Assembly: GCA_938036665.1 (NCBI GenBank)
Contig: CALHWR010000166.1
Coordinates: 1-14,229, forward strand
From: an uncultured Collinsella sp.
GTDB taxonomy: Bacteria; Actinomycetota; Coriobacteriia; Coriobacteriales; Coriobacteriaceae
Length of the DNA stretch: 14,229 nucleotides
Direction: 5' to 3'
Shown: piece by piece, positions 1,756 through 13,113 of the stretch
How positions within the stretch are numbered: the stretch's first letter is position 1
Layout of the letters: each line of letters opens with the position of its first letter
The notes under the pieces: model-generated
What the model saw: only the letters and a program-made list of their open reading frames with translations
What the model was told of the DNA's origin: nothing
Database searches by the model: none
Position numbers and translations under genes: made by a program

Positions 1756-1778
1756 ACGAAGATATGGGGAGGGGTCCC

Positions 1779-3206
1779 ATGGCAGTAGATAACAAGCAGA
1801 TTGCCACCGATGTCCTCGAGCTCGTGGGCGGTGCGGAGAATGTTACCGTCGCCACCAACTGCATGACGCGCCTGCGTCTGACGCTCAAGGACAACAGCAA
1901 GGCCGACGTGGAGAAGATCAAGAAGGTCAAGGGTGTTCTGGGTTGCCAGTTCGCCGGCAGCCAGCTCCAGGTCATCATCGGCCAGAACGTGCCCAAGGTG
2001 CTCGCCGAGTTTGTGGCCATGTCCGGCGTCAAGCAGGGCGAGGCCGTCAACGAGAACCTCGACGCGCCCAAGGAGAAGTTCGAGCTCAAGAACCTGCCGA
2101 ACATCATCCTCGACTATCTGTCCGGCTCCATGACCCAGCTCATCCCGCTGCTCATGGCCGGCGGTCTGTTCCGCACCATCGCCGCGGTCCTCGGTCCCAC
2201 CATGCTCGGCGTGCTCTCGGCCGACGACCCGACCTACACCTTCCTCTACACCACGCTGTACGAGGCAACCTTTACGTTTATCCCCATCTATCTGGGCTAT
2301 GCTGCGGCTAAGAAGCTCGGCGCCAGCCCTGTGCTCGGCATGCTCCTCGGCGGCGCTCTCATGGCCCCGTCCGTGGTGACGGCCGCTACGCAGGAGGGTG
2401 GCGGCATCATCTCGGTCTACGGTATCCAGATCGCTGCCGCCAACTATCAGCAGTCCGTTCTGCCGATCATCCTTTCGGTGCCTGTCCTCTACTTCATCGA
2501 GAAGTTCTTCAAGAAGGTCATGCCCGACGTGCTCTCCACGGTCTTCACGCCGTTCTGCACCATGATCGTCACGATCCCCATTGCCTTCATCGTCCTTGCC
2601 CCCGTCGGCAACGAGATCGGTTCCCTCATCGCAAACGCTCTGTTTGGCCTGGCTGATATGGGCGGCATCGGCGTCCTCGTCGTCATGGCCGTGCTCGGCG
2701 CCTTCTGGCAGCTCTTCGTGGTCTGCGGCATGCACATGCCCGTCATCCTGCTCGCTCAGGTTCAGATCATCGCCGCCGGCTTCGATCCCTTTGTCTTCGT
2801 TTCCACCAACTGCGCCATGGCCGCTGTCTGGGGCTGCGCCTTCGGTGCTTTCCTCAAGATGAAGAACCCCGACGAGAAGTCCCTTGCCATCGGTTACGTC
2901 ATCTCCGCTATCGCCGGCGGCGTCACCGAGCCCGCGCTCTTCGGTATCCTCATGCGCTTCCGTCGCACCATGTTTGGCATGTTCATCGGCGGTGCCATCG
3001 GCGCTGTGTTCTCCGGCCTCATGGGCGTTACCTATTACCTCGCAGGCGGTGCCTCCAACTTCCTGGTCTTCACCAACTACCTGCAGGGCGGCCAGATGAA
3101 CACCGTCTGGGCTATCGTCGGTATGGCAATCTCCTTTGTCATCGCCGCTGCCGTCGTCTTTGTCTCCGGCTTCTCCAAGGAGGAGCTCGCCGAGATGGAG
3201 GCCTAA
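1779..3206 (+). CDS. PTS permease EIIBC, glucose/beta-glucoside superfamily
   Basis: This 475-residue protein imports a sugar while phosphorylating it. The EIIB domain (about residues 5-80) carries the phosphocysteine Cys28 in the motif NCMTRLR. The EIIC membrane domain (about 105-460) has some ten hydrophobic segments and the family signature GVTEPALFG around residues 381-389. There is no C-terminal EIIA domain, unlike full-length BglF-type proteins, so phosphate must come from a separate EIIA such as the one at 11575-12111. I chose the ATG at 1779 because a GGGGAGGGG ribosome site ends 4 bases before it. An in-frame ATG at 1764 overlaps that site. The nearby 6-phospho-beta-glucosidase suggests a beta-glucoside substrate, but sucrose, trehalose or another glucoside is possible. 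The gene is flanked by an operator-rich leader and a strong terminator. Confidence 0.92.
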   Translation: MAVDNKQIATDVLELVGGAENVTVATNCMTRLRLTLKDNSKADVEKIKKVKGVLGCQFAGSQLQVIIGQNVPKVLAEFVAMSGVKQGEAVNENLDAPKEKFELKNLPNIILDYLSGSMTQLIPLLMAGGLFRTIAAVLGPTMLGVLSADDPTYTFLYTTLYEATFTFIPIYLGYAAAKKLGASPVLGMLLGGALMAPSVVTAATQEGGGIISVYGIQIAAANYQQSVLPIILSVPVLYFIEKFFKKVMPDVLSTVFTPFCTMIVTIPIAFIVLAPVGNEIGSLIANALFGLADMGGIGVLVVMAVLGAFWQLFVVCGMHMPVILLAQVQIIAAGFDPFVFVSTNCAMAAVWGCAFGAFLKMKNPDEKSLAIGYVISAIAGGVTEPALFGILMRFRRTMFGMFIGGAIGAVFSGLMGVTYYLAGGASNFLVFTNYLQGGQMNTVWAIVGMAISFVIAAAVVFVSGFSKEELAEMEA

Positions 3207-3224
3207 GGCCAAGCCATTCGGTCT

Positions 3225-3281
3225 AAAAAGACCCCTACACGACAGGGCCCCGTCAGGCGCAAGCCCGGCGGGGTCTTTTTT
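3225..3281 (+). terminator. Rho-independent terminator of the PTS gene
   Basis: AAAAAGACCCC (3225-3235) pairs with GGGGTCTTTTT ending in a six-T run (3270-3281). It lies 19 bases after the PTS stop codon. The A-rich 5' arm could let the hairpin work in both directions. Confidence 0.88.
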
Positions 3282-3299
3282 GCAAGGTAGACTGATTGG

Positions 3300-3407
3300 G
3301 GGCGGATGAGATCCGCCCGCGAGGAATTGCCAAGTGCCGAGGGCTTTCGCGCGGGGCTACCGCGAAAGCCCCCGGCGGTTCGCAACTCCTTTGTCAAACG
3401 AAAGGAC
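3300..3407 (+). promoter_or_regulatory. Structured leader of the apiosidase-like gene
   Basis: A perfect dyad GGGCGGAT-GAG-ATCCGCCC (3300-3318) is followed directly by a long hairpin. In the hairpin, 3321-3351 pairs with 3361-3391 without gaps; 27 of 31 positions pair, two of them wobbles, including an 11-bp perfect core. The last bases of the right arm, TCCTTT at 3387-3392, are also complementary to the ribosome site AAAGGA at 3401-3406. The two pairings exclude each other. This arrangement could control translation. No known riboswitch class is recognised. Confidence 0.45.
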
Positions 3408-3413
3408 ATGCAG

Positions 3414-4727
3414 ATGAGTTTGGGAAAACTGACCGTTAACGGTCGCCAGGATGGCTTCTTGTGCGACGGCAAACCATTCTTTTGGTTTGCCGATACGTGC
3501 TGGAGCGCATTCACGAGCATCACCGAGGTGGATTGGGACTACTACCTGACCCGCCGTGCCGAGCAGGGCATGAACGTACTGCAGATCAACACCCTGCCGC
3601 AGTGGGACCGCTGCCTGCCCGATCTGGGTATCTGGCCCTACGCGAGCGAGGACGGCGTTCACTTTGACTGGAACGCGCCCAACCAGGAGTACTGGGACCG
3701 CGCCCGCCGCATGTGCGAGGCAGCTGTGGAGCACGGCATTCGCCCGGCGCTCGTGCTCATGTGGTGTAACTACGTGCCCGGTACCTGGGGCGCCAAGATT
3801 GCCGAGCGTTGCGGTGCCGAGATTATGCCGCGCGAGGAGGTTCGCGCCCACGTTGCGCGTGTCGTCGAGAACCTGGGCGAGTTCGACCCCGTCTACGTGG
3901 TGACGGGCGATACCGACTTTGCCAGTGGCGAGGCGATTGCCTATTACGAGGAGGCGCTCGACGAGGCCGCCAAACTGGCGCCCGAGGCCCTGCGCACCAT
4001 GCACATCAACCGCGGCAACCGCAGCCTGCCCACGCAGTTTGCCAAGCGCCTGGACTTTTACATGTTCCAGCCCGGGCACAACTACGAGGGTCAGCCCGAG
4101 GCCTGGAAGCTCCCCGAGGACTTCCGCGCCAACTATCCCAAGCGCCCGATGGTCAACTCCGAGCCCTGCTACGAGCAGATGGGTGCGTCGCGCAACGTGT
4201 ACTGGCGTTTTACCGCGCAGGATTGCCGTGCAAGCGTGTGGTCGAGCATCCTGGCCGGTGCCTCGGCGGGCATTACCTACGGTGCGCACGGCGTGTGGAA
4301 CTGGCAGACCTCTCAGAGCCGTGGCAGCGTCCTTGGCGAGGGCTTTGACATGCCGTTCCGCTGGCAAGAGTGCCTGCAGTTTGCGGGCGTGTGGGACTTT
4401 GGCCTGATCGAGCACGTGCTGCGCGGCCTGGGTGCCACGAGCGCGGATGGGGCGGTAGCTGTTGAACCCGCGCAGGAGTTGCTCGACGACGCACGCGAGG
4501 CCATCCGCGTGGCGCGCGTGGGCGAACGCGTGGTGGTCTATCTGCCGAGGACCACGTCCGTCAAGCTCAAACTCGAGGGCGGCACCACCGCCTGGAATGC
4601 TGTGGCGTTTGACCTAGAGAACAAGCGCGTGGCAAACCTGCCGGTTGTGCCCGTCGACGGTGCCGTGCGCGTGGCCCAGCATCCCTTCGAGCACGATGCA
4701 CTCCTGGTGGTCTCGCCCGCTCAGTAG
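3414..4727 (+). CDS. DUF4038 (apiosidase-like) glycoside hydrolase
   Basis: This 437-residue protein has a DUF4038-type TIM-barrel domain (about residues 8-335). Family-typical landmarks are FFWFADTCW near the start, the RAEQGMNVLQ segment, VYVVTGDTDF (D166/D168 region) and VNSEPCYEQM with a probable catalytic Glu250. The last 90 residues form a beta-rich domain like the small C-terminal domain often found in these enzymes. DUF4038 includes GH140 apiosidases, but members may cleave other links. I preferred the ATG at 3414 over 3408 because the AAAGGA ribosome site then has a 7-base gap rather than 1. There is no signal peptide, so it should act in the cytoplasm on imported sugars. It has its own leader after the PTS terminator. 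Fold and family are well supported; the sugar is not. Confidence 0.82.
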   Translation: MSLGKLTVNGRQDGFLCDGKPFFWFADTCWSAFTSITEVDWDYYLTRRAEQGMNVLQINTLPQWDRCLPDLGIWPYASEDGVHFDWNAPNQEYWDRARRMCEAAVEHGIRPALVLMWCNYVPGTWGAKIAERCGAEIMPREEVRAHVARVVENLGEFDPVYVVTGDTDFASGEAIAYYEEALDEAAKLAPEALRTMHINRGNRSLPTQFAKRLDFYMFQPGHNYEGQPEAWKLPEDFRANYPKRPMVNSEPCYEQMGASRNVYWRFTAQDCRASVWSSILAGASAGITYGAHGVWNWQTSQSRGSVLGEGFDMPFRWQECLQFAGVWDFGLIEHVLRGLGATSADGAVAVEPAQELLDDAREAIRVARVGERVVVYLPRTTSVKLKLEGGTTAWNAVAFDLENKRVANLPVVPVDGAVRVAQHPFEHDALLVVSPAQ

Positions 4728-4781
4728 CGCGCGGCTCCAACGCGACCGGCGGCAAAAAGGCCCGAGTAACGACTACAGAAT

Positions 4782-4845
4782 GAGGGTGGATAATCTCCCG
4801 TTTTTTGCCTGTGTACGGGCTCAAAGTGGGAGATTATCCACCCTC
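4782..4845. repeat. 18-bp perfect inverted repeat between convergent genes
   Basis: GAGGGTGGATAATCTCCC (4782-4799) is repeated inverted and without mismatch at 4828-4845, with a 28-base spacer that contains a six-T run. It sits between the stop codons of the plus-strand hydrolase and the minus-strand regulator. No T run follows the stem on either strand, so it is not a standard terminator. It could still stop read-through, or be a small palindromic repeat element. Confidence 0.75.
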
Positions 4846-4877
4846 GTCATTTAAGTGACCAAAAATCCTCTCTCGTT

Positions 4878-5732
4878 TTATTTGAGCCCGGGCAGCTTGG
4901 TAAAGGGGAAGGACTGCTCGAGGAACTCGGAGCAGCGGGCGTAATCTTTGGCAAAGTAGCTGCTGTAGAGCGAATCGAGTACGTATTGCACGGCGATGTG
5001 GCTGGCAAACTGCGTGATGCGGTGGCTCAGGCTCTCGATATCGCTTACGGTGAGATATGCCGCAAAGCCGGGGTGAATGCGGGCACAGTATGGCGTGCCG
5101 ATGACGATGACCGGGACATGTCGACTGCAGAGGATCGGCAAGATCTCCTTGAGGTTGGGGGCAAGGCCGCTGTAGGAGATGACGATTGCCACATGGTCGG
5201 GGCCCGAGGCGAGCGCCGTGCGCACTTGGGCCTCGATATTGTCGTAGCACGTTGAGCTCTTACCGGCGGAAAGCAGGCGATCGCGGAACATTCCCGCCGG
5301 ATACAGGTTGTGCGAGCCCGTGTAGATGTCCACGGTGCCGGCGCGTAAGACGAGCTTGGCGGCGTAGTCGAGCTGTGCCGGGTCGAGGATCTCGCGCGTC
5401 TCGGAAAGCGTGGTCTCGTACAGTCGCGCCATGCGCTCGGAGATCTCCTGGGCGCTGGAGGTCGCATCAAAGGGAAAGTTGATATCCACCTCGGGGGCGG
5501 AGTCTGCGCGCGAGGCTGCGCGCATCAGCTCGACCTTGAGTTCTTTGAAGCCCTCGAGGCCGAGCTTTTTGCAAAAGCGGTGGATGCTCGCAACGGAGAC
5601 ATTGGCCTGGCGCGCAAATTCCTTAATGGAGAGCCCGCGGACGTCCTCGCCCATGGCGAGAACCGTCTGCCCGAGCTGCTGCTCGGTGGGGGTGAGCTCC
5701 TTGCCCTGCGTGATCTTGCGCTTGATGTCCAT
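4878..5732 (-). CDS. RpiR/MurR-family regulator with SIS domain
   Basis: This 284-residue protein is a predicted phosphosugar-responsive transcription regulator. Residues 1-75 form the RpiR-type helix-turn-helix domain (recognition region about 35-57, AROUND the ANVSVASIHRF segment). Residues about 125-255 form a sugar isomerase (SIS) domain with a GSHNLYPAGMF loop and an SYSG motif (186-189), where a phosphosugar would bind. The start at 5732 has a GGAG ribosome site 6 bases upstream. It is convergent with the apiosidase-like gene and lies downstream of the large hydrolase on the same strand, separated by element A. A GTAAAC half-site like those before the PTS gene occurs 43 bp upstream, so control of itself and of the PTS is plausible but unproven. 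Confidence 0.88.
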   Translation of the reverse strand: MDIKRKITQGKELTPTEQQLGQTVLAMGEDVRGLSIKEFARQANVSVASIHRFCKKLGLEGFKELKVELMRAASRADSAPEVDINFPFDATSSAQEISERMARLYETTLSETREILDPAQLDYAAKLVLRAGTVDIYTGSHNLYPAGMFRDRLLSAGKSSTCYDNIEAQVRTALASGPDHVAIVISYSGLAPNLKEILPILCSRHVPVIVIGTPYCARIHPGFAAYLTVSDIESLSHRITQFASHIAVQYVLDSLYSSYFAKDYARCSEFLEQSFPFTKLPGLK

Positions 5733-5810
5733 ATGACTCCTATGCGTTCGTGTCGCTATGTATCAATCATAGCGGTAAACAAAACGCCGGGGAGCAAGCC
5801 CTTTCTATGT

Positions 5811-5956
5811 TCCGCCGTTCTAACGAACGGCGGACCGCTTGACGCTGCGCGGGCCCCAAGCACCCCATCTTGCCGCTCAGCTTCGACGGCATGGGCAAAA
5901 GCCCTATGCCGCCTTGCTTCGTGGCAACCTGGGGCACTTGGAACCCGCTCGCTGAC
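5811..5956 (-). ncRNA. Structured intergenic element A (candidate RNA or palindromic repeat)
   Basis: On the plus strand it begins with a perfect 10-bp hairpin with a TAAC loop (5811-5834). A linker ending GACGCTGC follows (5835-5848), then a 100-base hairpin (5849-5948). The outer 26-base arms (5849-5874 and 5923-5948) pair at 24 positions if read as minus-strand RNA, four of these being G-U. On the plus strand those four become A-C mismatches. The tip is GGCAT, a 4-bp stem, a four-base loop, a one-base bulge and ATGCC (5888-5910). It shares design and sequence blocks with element B at 12925-13073. It lies between the hydrolase and the rpiR-type gene, both on the minus strand. No known RNA family is recognised. 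Confidence 0.6.
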
Positions 5957-5961
5957 TTAGA

Positions 5962-5989
5962 TTCAACCAAGGATTTTGCCTTGATTGAA
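5962..5989 (-). other. Hairpin just after the large hydrolase
   Basis: TTCAA-C-CAAGG (5962-5972) faces CCTTG-A-TTGAA (5979-5989). Read as minus-strand RNA the central mismatch becomes a U-G pair, giving an 11-bp stem with a 6-base loop, 16 bases after the hydrolase stop codon. No good T run follows, so it is a weak terminator or a 3'-end protecting stem at best. Confidence 0.35.
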
Positions 5990-6005
5990 GTGGGCTTCGA
6001 TGCCG

Positions 6006-8620
6006 TTAGCCAAGCAGGCGCACGGGGCCGAGCAGGCCGCTGGGTCCGGAGGGTTCGGTGAGGGCGAAGATGTCGGGGATGGCGTGGTCGAGGGTGTTGA
6101 TTACATCGATTGTGAGCGCATGTTCACCGGCGGCAAGGGTGCCGAGCTCAAAGCGGTAGGGCGGACAGATGCGGCAGCCCAGATCCGCGCCGTCAAGTGC
6201 GACCGTGGCGGTCTCAAAGACCTCGCCCAGGTCGAGCGCGGCGCCGGCGAGGTTCTCAGCAACGGCAAAGCTTGCCTGGTAGCGGAAAGTGCCTGCCTTG
6301 CCGGGGAATTCGGCGCAGGAAAGATCGTGCAGGTCGCCAAGCTCGACGGCCTCGTCAAAGACCAGGTGCGTGGCATCGGCGTCGGGCGTGGCAAAGGAGA
6401 CGTTCCAGGGGCCGTCAACGCGCGTGACCGCATGCTCGGCATCGGAGCCTCCGTGCTCGCCGGCAGCGGGCGCCTCGGCCCCGAGCACCACAATGCAGCT
6501 CTCGTAGGGCGCGAGCTCAAGCGTGCCGTCAAAGGCGACGGGTGCACTACCGTCGAGCAAATCGAGGCGCACGCCGTGCACGGGCGCGCCGTCAGCGAGC
6601 TCAACATGCGTGTGAATGCCCTGCTTGGGATGCTCGTTTACCAGCATGAGGTAGCTCTCGTCGGCGCGGTCGTAGCGAAGTGCGCGCAGCCACGGCTGCG
6701 GCTCGGTGCACACCGCGGTCTGCATACGGCCGCGCTCAGCACACCCGCAAGCTCGGAAGTTGCAACAACGCAAACGCCTGCAAGCTCGTTGGCCTCCACG
6801 GGGGCAAAGCCCGCGCGGCTGGCAGTTTCGCCGTCATAGCGCTTGCTCGGCAGTTTGTCCAGGGCATATACGCCAGCGCCTGCGGCTGCGGCGCACGCGG
6901 CAAAGTTGAGTACGGCCCCGCCGGCATATTCGGCGTCGGGCATCACCAGGCAGCGGTACGCCTGGCCGTTCACACTAAAGCCGCTGCCGTCTGCGGCGAT
7001 CTCCACAGCGTAGCGCTCGGTATCTTCAAACGCCTCGGCCGGCACGATATCGAAATCGATCTGCGCACGCACAAGCTCGGCGGCGGCATGCTGCATAAAC
7101 GAGGCCTCGCCCGCCCACTCGGCATCGGCGTGGTACAGAAGCGCCACCGGCGTGACGGCCCGCCCGCCCGAAAGCAGGCTCGAGGTGCGGTTCATGTAGC
7201 TCATGAGCTTGCCAAAGTGCGCAAACTGGGGGTTCTGACCGTGCGCGTAAAAGTGCGGCGGGCAGTCGAAGTCGGGGAAGGCGGCCATGCTAAAGGCGTG
7301 CGGCACAAACCAGTTGACGCCGCGCACCATAACGTGGTCGGTGATCCACTTCATCTCGCGCAGGCCCTCATGCCAGCCAAAAGCGCCAAAGACCTCGGCC
7401 ATGCAGCGGCCCTGCTTTTTGGGGTCGAGATGCGCTGCCGAGGAGCCCAGCTTGGGCAGCACGTAGTTGTAGAATTCCAGGTCCCACACGCCGCGGCCGT
7501 AGGAGTGGAGTCCCTGGTCCATGCCGGGGATGAGCTGGTTGATTACGATGTCCACGCCCGCCATGTCCTGGCCGCCTACGGCGCGAAAGTAGTGCCCGGC
7601 GCCCACACCCAGGCGCGCGTGGCAGTCCTTGTCCTCGATCACGTGGCCGATATACTGCACGCCGTGCGCGCGGCACCAGTCGCCGAGCTGGTCGCAGAAG
7701 CACTCCTTGTAGAGCGTGCTCGCGATGTCCATGTACACGTGGCGCACGTGCGCGCCGGCGTCCATGCGATCCCACAGGTGCGGGAGCTCGTCCAGGTAGC
7801 GCTCGCCCAGCGCCGCGCGCAGGCGGCGCTCGAGCTCAGCCGACCAGGGGAGCGGCGCGGTGGCCTTACCGATGAGTGTGTCGGAGATGCCGTCGGCGCC
7901 GGTGACGCCCTTCTCGTTGGCAAAGCCGGGCTCATCGGAGAAAAAGCCCAGGATGGTCTTGCCAAACTCATCGCCCAGATGCGCAAAGTGCGGCTCGTAC
8001 ACGGCATCGATGAGCTGCGCCACCGAGGCACGGTCGACCACGTTGATGTAGTCCTCGTTGTAGGAGGTCTTGCCGCTCGTGAACATCACGCACGCCTGCG
8101 TGGTGCCGGCCGGCGCATCAAAGACCAAGCGGCAGGGCGTGCCGTGCTCGTCCTCGATTACGCGGTGCTCCACCTCGACGGCGCGCCCTTCCTGCATAAA
8201 CGTAACGCCATAGAAGCGCTCCGTCTTGTCGAACATGTTGGTGAGCGCGATGCTCGCCTGCGGCGTGGGGCCCACCACGTCGATGGTGCGGTGGGTGAGA
8301 ACGATCTTGCGGAGCTCCGGCGCCGCCTCCTTGACGGCGCCGTTGGCGTATCCAGTGGGAAAGTGTGCGTCGTCCAAGATCCAGATCTTGAGGCCCAGCT
8401 GCTTGCACGTGTCGATCACAAAGCGCAGGTCGCGCCACCAGCCCTCACCGCAAAAATCGGGATGCGGACGACTCTCGAGGCAGACCTCGTGGATATCGGC
8501 GCCGGCGATCTTCTCCAGATACTCGGCAATGGTCTGTTGGTCCTCGCCCTTCATCCACAAAAACGGGAGTACGTGGTTGTCGTAGGCACCGTTGAGCACC
8601 TGCTGGTAGTACGCGGTCAT
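6006..8620 (-). pseudogene. GH106-like large glycoside hydrolase with one frameshift
   Basis: Two frames together encode a protein of about 871 residues. The first frame runs from an ATG at 8620 (GGAGG ribosome site 5 bases away) to about 6725. The second continues to a TAA at 6006-6008. The upstream frame keeps family-like sequence through SELAGVLSA and then turns into Arg/Ser-rich sequence. The other frame takes over at TEPQPWLRALRYD. A loss of one base near 6725-6727 would explain this. The N-terminal two thirds resemble GH106-like barrels (FLWMKGEDQQT, ILDDAHFPTGYANG, FFSDEPGF with Glu230, HVIEDKDCH with Glu329). The C-terminal 130 residues look like a GH2-type sugar-binding jelly roll. 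There is no signal peptide. The substrate may be rhamnosyl-linked or related glycans, which is uncertain. It is divergent from the AraC gene. A sequencing error is the main alternative to a true pseudogene. Confidence 0.7.
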
Positions 8621-8744
8621 GGATCCTCCTTGCAAGCCGATGGTGGGCAGCGTATGTTGCATGGCTCCATTCTGGCGTGCAGGCGGCGGCGTGCTAATAT
8701 CCAAATCACGGCAGAATATGACCGAATCAACGATTGGTGGGGCC
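8621..8744. promoter_or_regulatory. Divergent promoter region, hydrolase and AraC regulator
   Basis: This 124-base gap contains both start regions. A possible plus-strand promoter is TTGCAA (8630-8635) and TATGTT (8653-8658) with a 17-base spacer, which overlaps the hydrolase leader. Divergent arrangement with an AraC gene is typical of a target-regulator pair. No clear direct-repeat operator is visible. Confidence 0.35.
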
Positions 8745-9746
8745 ATGGAGATCTTGGAGCTCGAGCGCCGGCTGAGCGAGCTGAGCGTCAGCGAGAGGCG
8801 ATATAGGGACGAGGCTCCCTTTGACTGGTCGATCATGACCGAGCGCGTTGAGGTCGATGGACGGTCGGTGCGAAAGATCGGGCAGATTGGGACGGAATAT
8901 ACTCAGGCTGGGATGCCAGCTGGCCTGATGATCAGGAGAAACTCGCGCTTTAACGCGGTACCCGAGCACGTGCACGACTACGTTGAGATCAGCTATGTGT
9001 ACCGGGGGCGCTGTCCGCAGACGGTTGCGGGGGAGAAGCTCGTGCTCGAACGCAACGAGGTGCTGCTGCTCGATGCCGCCTGCCCGCATGCGGTGGCGGC
9101 GCTCGGCGAGGAAGACATCATGTTGAGTATGACCGTTTCACGCACCTTTTTACAGCGCAGCCTCGAGGCGAGCCTCTCGCGCGGGAGTGCGGTATCGCGG
9201 TTTTTGTTTAACGCGCTCAACAGCGAGACCGACCATCGCGGGCACGTGCGCTTTCGCTGCGGGGAGAGCCGGCGCGTGCGGCGCTACATGCAGGAGATGC
9301 TCTGCGAACGCTACGAGCCGAGCCTCAACAGCGCCGAGATCGTTCTGCGCCTGTTTCAGCTTCTGTTGGCCGAGCTCATGGATTGCTATGAGCGCGAGCT
9401 CGTGCACGGCGCGGTGGCGGGGCGCGATGAGTCGGGGCGCGCGGCCTCGCTCGTGGCAGGGATGCTCGGCTACATCGAGCGCTCGTTTGCCGCCTGCTCG
9501 CTCGAGGAGATGGCGGCACGCTTTCATGTGAGCCCTAACTACGCGTCGGCGCTGCTCAAGCAGCATGTGGGAAAGACCTACCGACAGCTGGTCCAGGAGC
9601 GCAGGCTCGCGCGTGCCGCGGAGCTCTTGCGCGCGGGTGCCACGGCCGAGGCGGCGGCGCGTGCCGTTGGCTATGAGAACATGAGCTTTTTCTATCGCAA
9701 GTTCCGCACCGCCTACGGCTGCACGCCGGCAACATACCGTGGATGA
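8745..9746 (+). CDS. AraC-family transcription regulator
   Basis: This protein of 333 residues (from 8745) has an N-terminal cupin-like effector domain with PEHVHDYVE (His75, His77) and a C-terminal pair of helix-turn-helix motifs over the last 100 residues. These include LEEMAARFHVSPNYASALLK and AVGYENMSFFYRKFRTAYG, the latter being the classic AraC signature ending in TPATYR. The start is uncertain. The ATG at 8745 has a GGTGGGG site at a fair distance. An ATG at 8718 would add nine residues but has no good ribosome site, and the frame remains open further upstream. It is divergent from the large hydrolase and is the natural candidate for its control. The inducer is probably a sugar. Confidence 0.88.
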   Translation: MEILELERRLSELSVSERRYRDEAPFDWSIMTERVEVDGRSVRKIGQIGTEYTQAGMPAGLMIRRNSRFNAVPEHVHDYVEISYVYRGRCPQTVAGEKLVLERNEVLLLDAACPHAVAALGEEDIMLSMTVSRTFLQRSLEASLSRGSAVSRFLFNALNSETDHRGHVRFRCGESRRVRRYMQEMLCERYEPSLNSAEIVLRLFQLLLAELMDCYERELVHGAVAGRDESGRAASLVAGMLGYIERSFAACSLEEMAARFHVSPNYASALLKQHVGKTYRQLVQERRLARAAELLRAGATAEAAARAVGYENMSFFYRKFRTAYGCTPATYRG

Positions 9747-9856
9747 GCAAGGCGGGGCGGGCTTTTAGCTATCGATATGCCACATCTAAATAGGTCGTTT
9801 CGTTTCATCTACCCGGGTCGGAGGGTGGCCGTCAGGTCGATTTTTGCCTCGTCTAG

Positions 9857-11434
<1,578 letters not shown>

Positions 11435-11496
11435 TCGACAATATGAGTGCCACCGGGGAAAAGCGTTGGGATGGGCTCGCGATTCGAGTCCCCACC

Positions 11497-11525
11497 TTAG
11501 CATTTGAACCATTTGGCACTATAAT
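11497..11525 (+). promoter_or_regulatory. Sigma-70-type promoter of the EIIA gene
   Basis: TTAGCA (11497-11502) and a perfect TATAAT (11520-11525) are separated by exactly 17 bases. Transcription would start near 11532, giving a leader of about 43 bases. This suggests the EIIA gene is expressed independently of the glucosidase gene. Confidence 0.75.
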
Positions 11526-11574
11526 CACCATAGGCATGCGCATAACGTTGCGCTTAATCAAGAGGAGAAAACGT

Positions 11575-12111
11575 ATGGGTCTGTTTGACATGTTCAAGAA
11601 GAAGGCTGAGCCCGCGGCTGCCGCTGCTCCGGCTTCTATCTCTGCTTCTGCCGGCGCCGATGTGCTGTGCTCGCCCGTCAAGGGCAAGGTCATCAAGATG
11701 GCCGACGTGCCCGATCCCGTCTTTGGTGGCGAGGTTCTGGGCAAGGGCTGCGCCGTGTGGCCCGAGGACGACCTGGTCTACGCTCCCTGCGACGGCAAGG
11801 TGACCGTCACCATGGGTCACGCCGTGGGTCTGCAGTCCGATAATGGCATCGAGGTTCTGGTGCACGTTGGCGTCGATACCGTCAACATGAACGGCGATGG
11901 CTTCGAGGGCTTCGTCAAGGCTGACGACGTCGTGAAGGCTGGCCAGCCCATGCTCAAGATCGACCGCGCCAAGATCGCCGCTGCCGGTTACAAGGACTGC
12001 GTCGTGGTGGCCGTGTCCAACACCGCCGAGTTTGCCGATGTCGAGCTCGCCGTCGAGGCCGACTCCGCTGTCGCCGCCGGTGACGCCATCGTCAAGGTCG
12101 TCCGCAAGTAA
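11575..12111 (+). CDS. Stand-alone PTS EIIA component, glucose (Crr) type
   Basis: This 178-residue protein is a single EIIA-Glc domain after a short Ala-rich N-terminal stretch (about residues 10-28). The phosphorylated histidine is His97 in VLVHVGVDTVNM, and the conserved partner His82 lies in TMGHAVGLQS. It carries phosphate from HPr to EIIB domains. EIIBC at 1779-3206 has no EIIA domain, so this protein is its likely donor, and it may serve other permeases. The ATG at 11575 has AGGAG 8 bases upstream. It has its own promoter and a strong terminator, suggesting a housekeeping, single-gene unit. Confidence in family is high; crr is the usual name for such proteins, but orthology is not shown here. 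Confidence 0.92.
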   Translation: MGLFDMFKKKAEPAAAAAPASISASAGADVLCSPVKGKVIKMADVPDPVFGGEVLGKGCAVWPEDDLVYAPCDGKVTVTMGHAVGLQSDNGIEVLVHVGVDTVNMNGDGFEGFVKADDVVKAGQPMLKIDRAKIAAAGYKDCVVVAVSNTAEFADVELAVEADSAVAAGDAIVKVVRK

Positions 12112-12347: not shown

Positions 12348-12905
12348 ATGAAAAAGAAGCTGCTGCTTGCGCCCCTCATGGCCGTCTTGGTTGCATGCGT
12401 GGTCGTGCTTTCTGGTTGCGGAGGCCCTTCGATTGAGGAACTCATCACCGAGGATCTTACGACTCAGTTTGACGAGGTCAAGAACGGTGGCGACGAGTTC
12501 CTTTCTGGTCTGGAGGAGGCTTCGGGCGACGAGTTCGAGCAGTTGGGTATCGATCCCAAGGAGTATGCCAAGACCTATCTCGAAGGCTTTGACTACGAGA
12601 TCGGCGACGTGACGGTCGACGAGGACAAGGGTGTCGCGACCGCCGAGGTCTCCATCACCTGCAAGTCCATGAACAAGATCGTCGAGGACTTCTCCACCCA
12701 GTATCAGGAGAAGGTCGCCGCGCTTGATACGGTTCCCTCCGATGACGAGCTGTACAAGATGGCCGGTCAGGTTATGGTCGATGTGACCAAGGCCACCGAG
12801 CCCAGGAAGACCACGGTTATCTTCAAGTACACCTGCAACGACGACGGCGAGTGGTCTGCCGACGACTCCGTCAACTCCGAGATGATGGATGCAATGCTGA
12901 GCTAG
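12348..12905 (+). CDS. Small acidic lipoprotein of unknown function
   Basis: This 185-residue protein starts with a lipoprotein signal peptide: basic MKKK, a hydrophobic core and the lipobox LSGC with Cys24 as the lipid-bearing residue. It should be anchored on the outer face of the membrane. The mature part is acidic and rich in Asp, Glu and Lys, with predicted helices (about 30-75) followed by beta-rich segments (about 85-110 and 155-172). I do not recognise a family. It resembles small DUF-type lipoproteins common in Firmicutes and Actinobacteria. The ATG at 12348 has GGGAGG 5 bases upstream. The longer frame to 12129 overlaps the EIIA terminator and is unlikely. It is a single gene after a terminator. 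Confidence 0.82.
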   Translation: MKKKLLLAPLMAVLVACVVVLSGCGGPSIEELITEDLTTQFDEVKNGGDEFLSGLEEASGDEFEQLGIDPKEYAKTYLEGFDYEIGDVTVDEDKGVATAEVSITCKSMNKIVEDFSTQYQEKVAALDTVPSDDELYKMAGQVMVDVTKATEPRKTTVIFKYTCNDDGEWSADDSVNSEMMDAMLS

Positions 12906-12924
12906 GGGAGTTACGCGGTAGTTT

Positions 12925-13073
12925 GTTACGGCGTTTTACCAAACGCCGTAACTGCTCGACGCTGCGCGGGCACCAGAGCGACAACTTGTCATTCAAAGAG
13001 GACGGCATGACCAGAAGGTCTATGCCGTCCTCTTTTCATGCCAATTTGTTCGCTCTGGTGCCCGCTCGCTGTC
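12925..13073 (-). ncRNA. Structured intergenic element B (candidate RNA or palindromic repeat)
   Basis: A perfect 12-bp hairpin with TACC loop (12925-12952) is followed by a linker ending GACGCTGC (12953-12965). A 100-base hairpin comes next (12966-13065). Its outer 16-bp arms GCGGGCACCAGAGCGA and the inverse are perfect, as is an inner 14-bp stem (12995-13008 with 13022-13035). The tip has a 4-bp stem, an AGAA loop and a one-base bulge at 13021. It has the same design and sequence blocks as element A, including CCCGCTCGCTG at the end. Read from the minus strand, mismatches become G-A pairs, including a tandem pair. It lies between the convergent lipoprotein and HAD genes. Confidence 0.6.
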
Positions 13074-13113
13074 CGTCCTCTACCTGCGGCGTTGCCATGG
13101 TAGTCATTGGGGC

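Follow-up and report, generated by a model that had tools for sequence, protein, structure and literature searches.

The window, that is the whole stretch of 14,229 nucleotides analysed here, derives from an uncultured Collinsella sp. Pfam assigns positions 1764-12111 to a sugar-use cluster comprising PTS EIIBC, an apiosidase-like protein, regulators of the RpiR and AraC types, GH106-like and GH1 proteins, and PTS EIIA. Further along lies a structured repeat, referred to as element B, directly behind a small gene, and a second copy, element A, is found within the cluster. The features are the following:

5806..5954, + strand: element A, a divergent copy of the family of B with the same plan
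12348..12905, + strand: upstream gene for a small predicted lipoprotein, without Pfam match, stop codon TAG at 12903-12905
12906..12921, + strand: probably what is left of an older short hairpin of this repeat family (compare locus L165)
12922-13071, tail to about 13091, + strand: element B overall
12925..12952, + strand: hairpin I of B, 12-bp stem with TACC loop
12956..12965, + strand: conserved motif TCGACGCTGC with core GACGCTGC
12966..13065, + strand: long imperfect hairpin of B, outer arms perfect over 16 bp
13009-13012/13017-13020: apex of the long hairpin, GACC/GGTC, bulge T at 13021
13066..13071, + strand: conserved 3' motif TCGCTG of B
13082..13091, + strand: 3' tail motif ACCTGCGGCG of B, common to part of the family

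Both elements follow the order short hairpin, CGACGCTGC, long imperfect hairpin, TCGCTG. Their predicted RNA folds reach z-scores of -14.7 (B) and -7.1 (A), with 0 equally good structures among 200 shuffles each. The sequence GACGCTGCGCGGGC occurs exactly at two places only in the window, namely in A and B; with 3 mismatches allowed it has 8 sites, which is no more than chance. The original prediction described paired base changes between the copies, and these are borne out: the apical stem is GACC/GGTC in B versus GGGC/GCCC (5893-5896/5901-5904) in A, a one-base bulge T sits at matching places (13021 and 5905), both bases differ in 3 of the 10 short-hairpin pairs nearest the loop, and the outer arms of B (12966-12981/13050-13065) are perfect over 16 bp. 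The proposed end at 13073 is slightly short, as the 3' tail with ACCTGCGGCG recurs in part of the copies; its ACCTG is found in 25 of 90 distinct Collinsella flanks and in 44 of 79 from other genera. The composite of remnant and hairpin seen in B is present at L165 (genome G034) and missing at L152 (genome G001). A third repeat, built on GTAGTCATTGGGGACGTTCTTAAATGACTA, stands at 13099-13113 and often lies directly downstream of elements in many flanks. A separate long palindromic repeat, GTGGATAATCTCCC...GGGAGATTATCCAC, is located at 4782-4845 of the window, and a copy of it resides inside a family element at L029 (about 1560-1640).

It had been proposed that the two-sided changes reflect selection on structure and that many aligned copies should covary. 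Covariation was assessed with a home-made equivalent of R-scape, a G-test with APC against a substitution-shuffling null (FastTree/Fitch). In 94 Collinsella copies fitted to a covariance model, 23 pairs were significant, of which 19 lay on the structure, the other 4 were displaced by one column and none fell elsewhere, and in 79 copies of other genera, fitted likewise, all 21 significant pairs fell on the structure. Such alignments are biased towards the fold; a sequence-only MAFFT alignment of the 94 Collinsella copies, free of that bias, gave 22 significant pairs, 18 on the fold, 4 one column off and 0 elsewhere. RNAalifold found 51 pairs in 23 copies, 35 of them with two-sided changes. When 99 distinct rows from Collinsella are compared, pairing holds in 96.2% of cells (99.3% in hairpin I) and 40 of the 51 pairs show two-sided changes, a degree of pairing reached by 0 of 500 shuffles and by no slid register. 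Judged from these alignments, covariation in the family is real. The proposed interpretation is thereby supported, although covariation alone is no proof of selection, because template switching in palindromes makes two-sided changes in one step. Between subtypes whole stem blocks differ while certain unpaired 2x2 loops (TC opposite TC) persist, other genera included, and these unchanged unpaired loops are the stronger sign of selection.

This persistence also bears on a purely mutational origin, in which template switching would perfect the hairpins and covariation would reflect repair instead of function. Two alleles fit such a process, an inverted inner hairpin with perfected arms (L002 in G003) and an inversion at L007 in G024. 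However, the loops would then be erased, whereas they are retained across genera with unrelated stems, and stop-codon anchoring and fork bias (see below) are left unexplained. This account was already disfavoured, and we consider it very improbable.

A covariance model of 149 positions, built from 23 copies, was used to survey genomes. The nearest genome compared, G001, has 32 BLAST matches and 48 matches to the model. Within Collinsella the element is present in 36 of 43 genomes, with 29-48 copies in 21, 1-14 in 15 and none in 7. Throughout the class Coriobacteriia, 99 of 296 genomes have matches (E <= 1e-6), among them G107 with 40 copies, and these carriers represent 35 of 125 genera. Match lengths in Collinsella and in other genera are near the full 149 positions; distant matches have different stems, and exact GACGCTGC occurs in 24 of 27 inspected copies of other genera. 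A DNA pattern of the Collinsella head matched 87 stretches, all from Collinsella. Two element queries had no match in phage sequences, and a plasmid collection gave one match, to a C. aerofaciens replicon of 900 kb that was hit at 12 places. Tandem heads, with two units of hairpin I plus GACGCT(G/A)C before one long hairpin, were observed at L030, L063, L066, L075, L076, L090, L103 and L119. An additional outer helix between GACGCTGC and downstream GCGGCGTT was considered and dropped: it was fully paired in 26 of 90 Collinsella copies versus 13 with shuffled flanks, and in other genera in 9 versus 13 of 75.

The position of the elements is distinctive. In 36 of 50 distinct Collinsella contexts a same-strand coding frame ends within 15 nt of hairpin I, the stop being TAG in 28, TAA in 8 and TGA in 0. 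In 12 further contexts the stop lies at a distance of 16-150 nt, some of these copies being second units of tandem heads, and 2 contexts have none. These 50 contexts are copies with a recognisable hairpin I, many of them found by the hairpin-I pattern; copies without hairpin I (L006) lie outside this set, and the flank was sufficient in 134 of 136 copies. Seven genomes of one family of the class, labelled f3, have a stop within 15 nt in 45 of 58 copies (TAG 27, TAA 15, TGA 3). TGA is more frequent in sampled genes, at 21/146 (G003), 33/132 (G107) and 49/134 (G125). Gene calls behind these counts, and behind the fork counts below, follow a crude ORF/GC3 rule (in one count without GC3). In three annotated stretches of one C. 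aerofaciens record, the four copies found lie directly after annotated gene ends, namely those of lysS, queA and the genes for an SDR oxidoreductase and an M20 peptidase. The base ahead of TAG is G in 19 of 72 distinct contexts. Element A has no same-strand stop codon directly ahead.

Orthologous loci were compared between strains, where the original prediction had called for a search for empty sites. The gene at locus B, or a piece of it, is found in 27 of 43 Collinsella genomes. All 17 full-length gene matches have the element or its beginning after the stop, with varying subtypes, as do gene fragments in G033 and G035. The alleles combine hairpin I and long hairpin in various ways. G002 and G026 have an ordinary terminator in place of the element, and the six most distant genomes that have the gene show no element at this locus. 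At 18 loci of G001, examined in four genomes, 17 of 72 sites are empty by manual reading of the alleles listed; automatic labels had mistaken some terminators for hairpin I. Empty sites occur at 7 of the 18 loci (L002, L013, L017, L020, L021, L024, L028). Remnants and alleles with hairpin I alone were also among those listed, and L028 has inverted copies. At L002, L017, L020, L021 and L028, i.e. 5 of the 7 loci, the stop is TAA in empty and TAG in filled alleles. L013 has TAG in both; at L024 the filled allele has TAA and the empty alleles TAG twice and TAA twice. Filled alleles with TAA were also seen at L008 in G003 and at L029 in G002 and G026. At L002, L024 and L028 a hairpin-plus-T terminator of the empty alleles is absent from the filled allele. 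At L017 in G024 the long hairpin is missing between two GACG copies, as expected of slippage. Terminal inverted repeats were looked for, and by reading the two ends of the element differ from each other; no clean case of target duplication was found at the empty and filled loci read, where right ends are ragged. Copies are thus scattered, gained and lost between strains, with hairpin modules exchanged and the fold kept while stems change. Of the proposed "recent spread or strong constraint", signs of both are seen. Stop-codon anchoring, the fold-bearing strand, replication-strand bias and the class-wide distribution go beyond the original prediction.

Regarding the strand that carries the fold, the strand opposite the gene has the better calculated RNA energy for 89 of 94 copies from Collinsella and for 75 of 79 from other genera (3 the other way, one tie); with DNA energies the numbers are 92 of 94 and 77 of 79. 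The TC/TC loops become tandem G-A on the strand opposite the gene, where 49 of 79 copies of other genera have C(UUCG)G or C(UUUG)G as the apex and Collinsella copies mostly C(UUCU)G (57 of 94). Wobble pairs were considered as proof of strand and set aside. A first count favoured antisense in both groups (22 versus 35 and 27 versus 68 isolated events); a fuller count of distinct contexts does so in other genera only (73 versus 130) and is neutral in Collinsella (60 versus 61), and wobble pairs of hairpin I lean to the strand of the gene (13 versus 2 and 15 versus 9 distinct contexts). Because the wobble counts disagree, the strand claim rests on loops of G-A type and on folding energies, both of which are inherited together among the copies and are not independent events. 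Hence we assume with fair confidence that the fold of the long hairpin is carried by the strand opposite the gene, RNA and single-stranded DNA being indistinguishable in these predictions.

The direction of the copies was related to replication, with the origin placed at dnaA, in accordance with GC skew in most of the windows sampled. Of the 148 copies listed for five f3 genomes, 140 are oriented with the fork, as are 302 of 525 genes sampled in four of these genomes. Among the copies listed this amounts to 30/32 in G107 (32 of 40 matches listed; genes 65/132), 28/29 in G125 (29 of 32 matches listed; genes 72/134), 28/30 in G162 (genes 82/133), 13/13 in G215, and 41/44 in G111 with the inferred terminus or 37/44 with a symmetric one (genes 83/126). 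For G111 the terminus was placed at 1.0 Mb on the basis of the strand switch itself and of GC skew. The orientation switch in G111 is sharp and falls in the interval 0.88-1.14 Mb, which does not contain the point opposite dnaA; the sampled windows show a GC skew in agreement with this, and the repeats may mark the terminus. Fork bias in Collinsella is weak: 24/29 in G003 (29 of 36 matches listed) versus 89/146 genes (p 0.03), 24/32 in G002 (32 of 42 listed) versus 85/134 genes (not significant), and 22/28 in G024 (28 of 39 listed); Fisher p-values for fork bias are optimistic because sampled windows hold operons. Two of the three genomes tested have their copies spread evenly between origin and terminus, and G125 departs from even spacing (p 0.03), its copies being on average nearer the origin.

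A search for a mobilising enzyme covered two families. Y1 transposases are found in 73 of 99 carrier genomes versus 67 of 197 non-carriers (Fisher p 8e-11, relatedness uncorrected). They were not found in 26 of the 99 carriers, among them G107, so that a Y1 transposase (RAYT) is not required for presence of the element; it is a candidate for past mobilisation. Neither of the two Y1 loci of G001 has a match to the element. The Y1 transposase gene at one of them, L032, is flanked by another repeat, GGGACAGGTTTATTTTGG (copies at about 446-487, 1216-1262 and 2174-2218), possibly its own REP family. The reverse transcriptase family RVT_1 was rejected as a shared enzyme, being present in 29 of 99 carriers, 30 of 197 other genomes and 6 of 21 high-copy Collinsella genomes.

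Several known systems resemble the family in part. IS200/IS605 transposons follow a single-strand logic with hairpin ends and a preference for the lagging strand. An orientation given by the lagging-strand template is likewise seen in the listed f3 copies and is weak in Collinsella. However, family copies read encode no transposase, the best fold is on the other strand, there is no fixed target tetranucleotide, and Y1 transposases, though commoner in carriers, are absent from many. Integron attC sites have R boxes (RYYYAAC/GTTRRRY) at their ends and form arrays at one place, which is not what we find by reading the copies and their dispersed positions. For MITEs, terminal inverted repeats and a short target duplication were the traits compared; at the loci read the two ends differ and no clean duplication was seen, and the family may still be MITE-like. 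REP elements of the GTAG- and CGTC-tagged superfamilies with RAYT transposases are described as dispersed palindromes mostly downstream of genes; GTAG REP ends often give the TAG stop to flanking ORFs, CGTC REPs occur without a dedicated transposase, and REPs may be small mobile elements (PMC3733652). Our family shares the place downstream of genes and the habit of supplying TAG, whereas REPs have 20-40 bp versus about 150-170 bp here with a second, long hairpin. The unpaired GTAG or CGTC tag beside the stem is not found: the TAG of the stop is frequent, with the preceding G in the minority of contexts given above, and GACG (CGTC reversed) stands some 5 nt off the stem. Nor is a RAYT gene flanked by the repeat seen at the two Y1 loci of G001. 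The stem-loop repeat families Bcr1, Efa-1, BOX and RUP, with Efa-1 and Pae-1 consisting of a pair of adjacent stem-loops (PMC2267715), are similar in size and copy number, Bcr1 and Efa-1 also in shape. They belong to other hosts, and the excerpts available to us, on which this comparison by description is based, state neither stop anchoring nor replication-strand bias. Collinsella-1 RNA (RF01700) is listed as a structured motif for Actinobacteria and the human gut (PMC2864571); a scan of 12900-13100 with E up to 10 gave 23 matches, none of them to this family. Rfam gave no family at gathering score in the window or at seven loci (0 matches), and a known RNA family was discarded, the miRNA-type matches for 12900-13100 being far below gathering scores. 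Open-licence full texts yielded no description of this family, which seemingly is undescribed and fits none of the compared definitions in full.

Based on this dataset, we hypothesize, with a probability of about 0.5, that element B is a copy of a Coriobacteriia-wide, non-autonomous mobile repeat of about 150-170 bp, REP- or MITE-like, fold-dependent and coupled to replication. The element would move via a folded single-stranded intermediate recognised by its shape, which would enter the chromosome at the replication fork, with the TA of a TAA or TAG stop codon as insertion site. It would often supply the third base of the stop (TA|G) and become the new 3' untranslated region of the gene, sometimes in place of the old terminator; the mobilising enzyme may act from elsewhere or have been lost. 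Copy numbers, sites filled in some strains and empty in others, alleles with hairpin I alone, an inverted copy and the replacement of terminators speak for mobility, as do stop anchoring, the change from TAA to TAG at 5 of 7 loci, the f3 fork bias, covariation and the Y1 association. This reading is weakened by the missing enzyme, by right ends that are ragged and show no clean target duplication, by alleles filled with TAA, by the weak fork bias in Collinsella, by a more stable fold on the strand other than the lagging-strand template, and by the 14 Collinsella contexts without a nearby stop (12 and 2 of 50, see above). Because TAA-filled alleles exist, the third base would not always come from the element, and these alleles slightly lower our confidence in the mobile reading. 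A more specific version takes stop codons as the target itself: an antisense folded single-stranded intermediate would join the nascent lagging strand at the TA of TAA or TAG, often giving the last base of the stop and taking over the 3' end. This version is tentative, and we rate it as rather unlikely.

The main rival is a domesticated 3'-UTR element, a pair of RNA hairpins that would end or protect transcripts and touch the terminating ribosome, being selected in place and copied mainly by recombination and gene conversion. The strict sense-oriented place behind stop codons would suit such a role, as would the retention of some version at locus B in 17 of 17 close relatives with a full match, the replacement of native terminators at L002, L024 and L028, and the lean of hairpin I wobble pairs to the strand of the gene. 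Against this, neither hairpin is followed by a U-tract in the copies read, the 7 of 18 loci with empty sites show the element to be dispensable, the antisense strand gives the better fold of the long hairpin, and the f3 fork bias is unexpected. We regard this role as doubtful as the principal explanation, and it may hold alongside mobility.

Since the best fold is not on the lagging-strand template, an intermediate of antisense polarity is favoured within the mobile reading. As an explanation in its own right, an RNA or cDNA of that polarity, built into the nascent lagging strand like retron DNA or recombineering oligonucleotides, appears improbable to us. Such a molecule would fit the energies optimised on the strand opposite the gene (89/94 and 75/79 copies) and the tandem G-A loops and UUCG- or UUUG-type apex on that strand, which equals the nascent lagging-strand sequence when copies point with the fork. 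However, RVT_1 is limited to 29 of 99 carriers and 6 of 21 high-copy genomes, even if somewhat commoner in carriers than in the other genomes (30/197), and the Collinsella wobble counts are neutral. A polar chromosome-organising sequence of the KOPS type, retained for its direction, would be in line with the strong co-orientation in f3 genomes and is hardly credible given the even spacing, without enrichment near the terminus, in two of three genomes (G125 departing), strain polymorphism, gene-end anchoring and the weak Collinsella bias.

In f3 genomes the direction of the element follows replication so closely that it indicates where the terminus lies. If the mobile reading is right, each genome of the common gut Coriobacteriia would have dozens of genes ending in a mobile structured element, and strain differences in gene ends and expression may stem from it. 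Targeting of stop codons, if true, would be a new insertion logic across a bacterial class. The family offers a test bed for how a repeat spreads without an evident transposase, how it halts just behind stop codons, and how a fold is kept while nearly every paired base changes.
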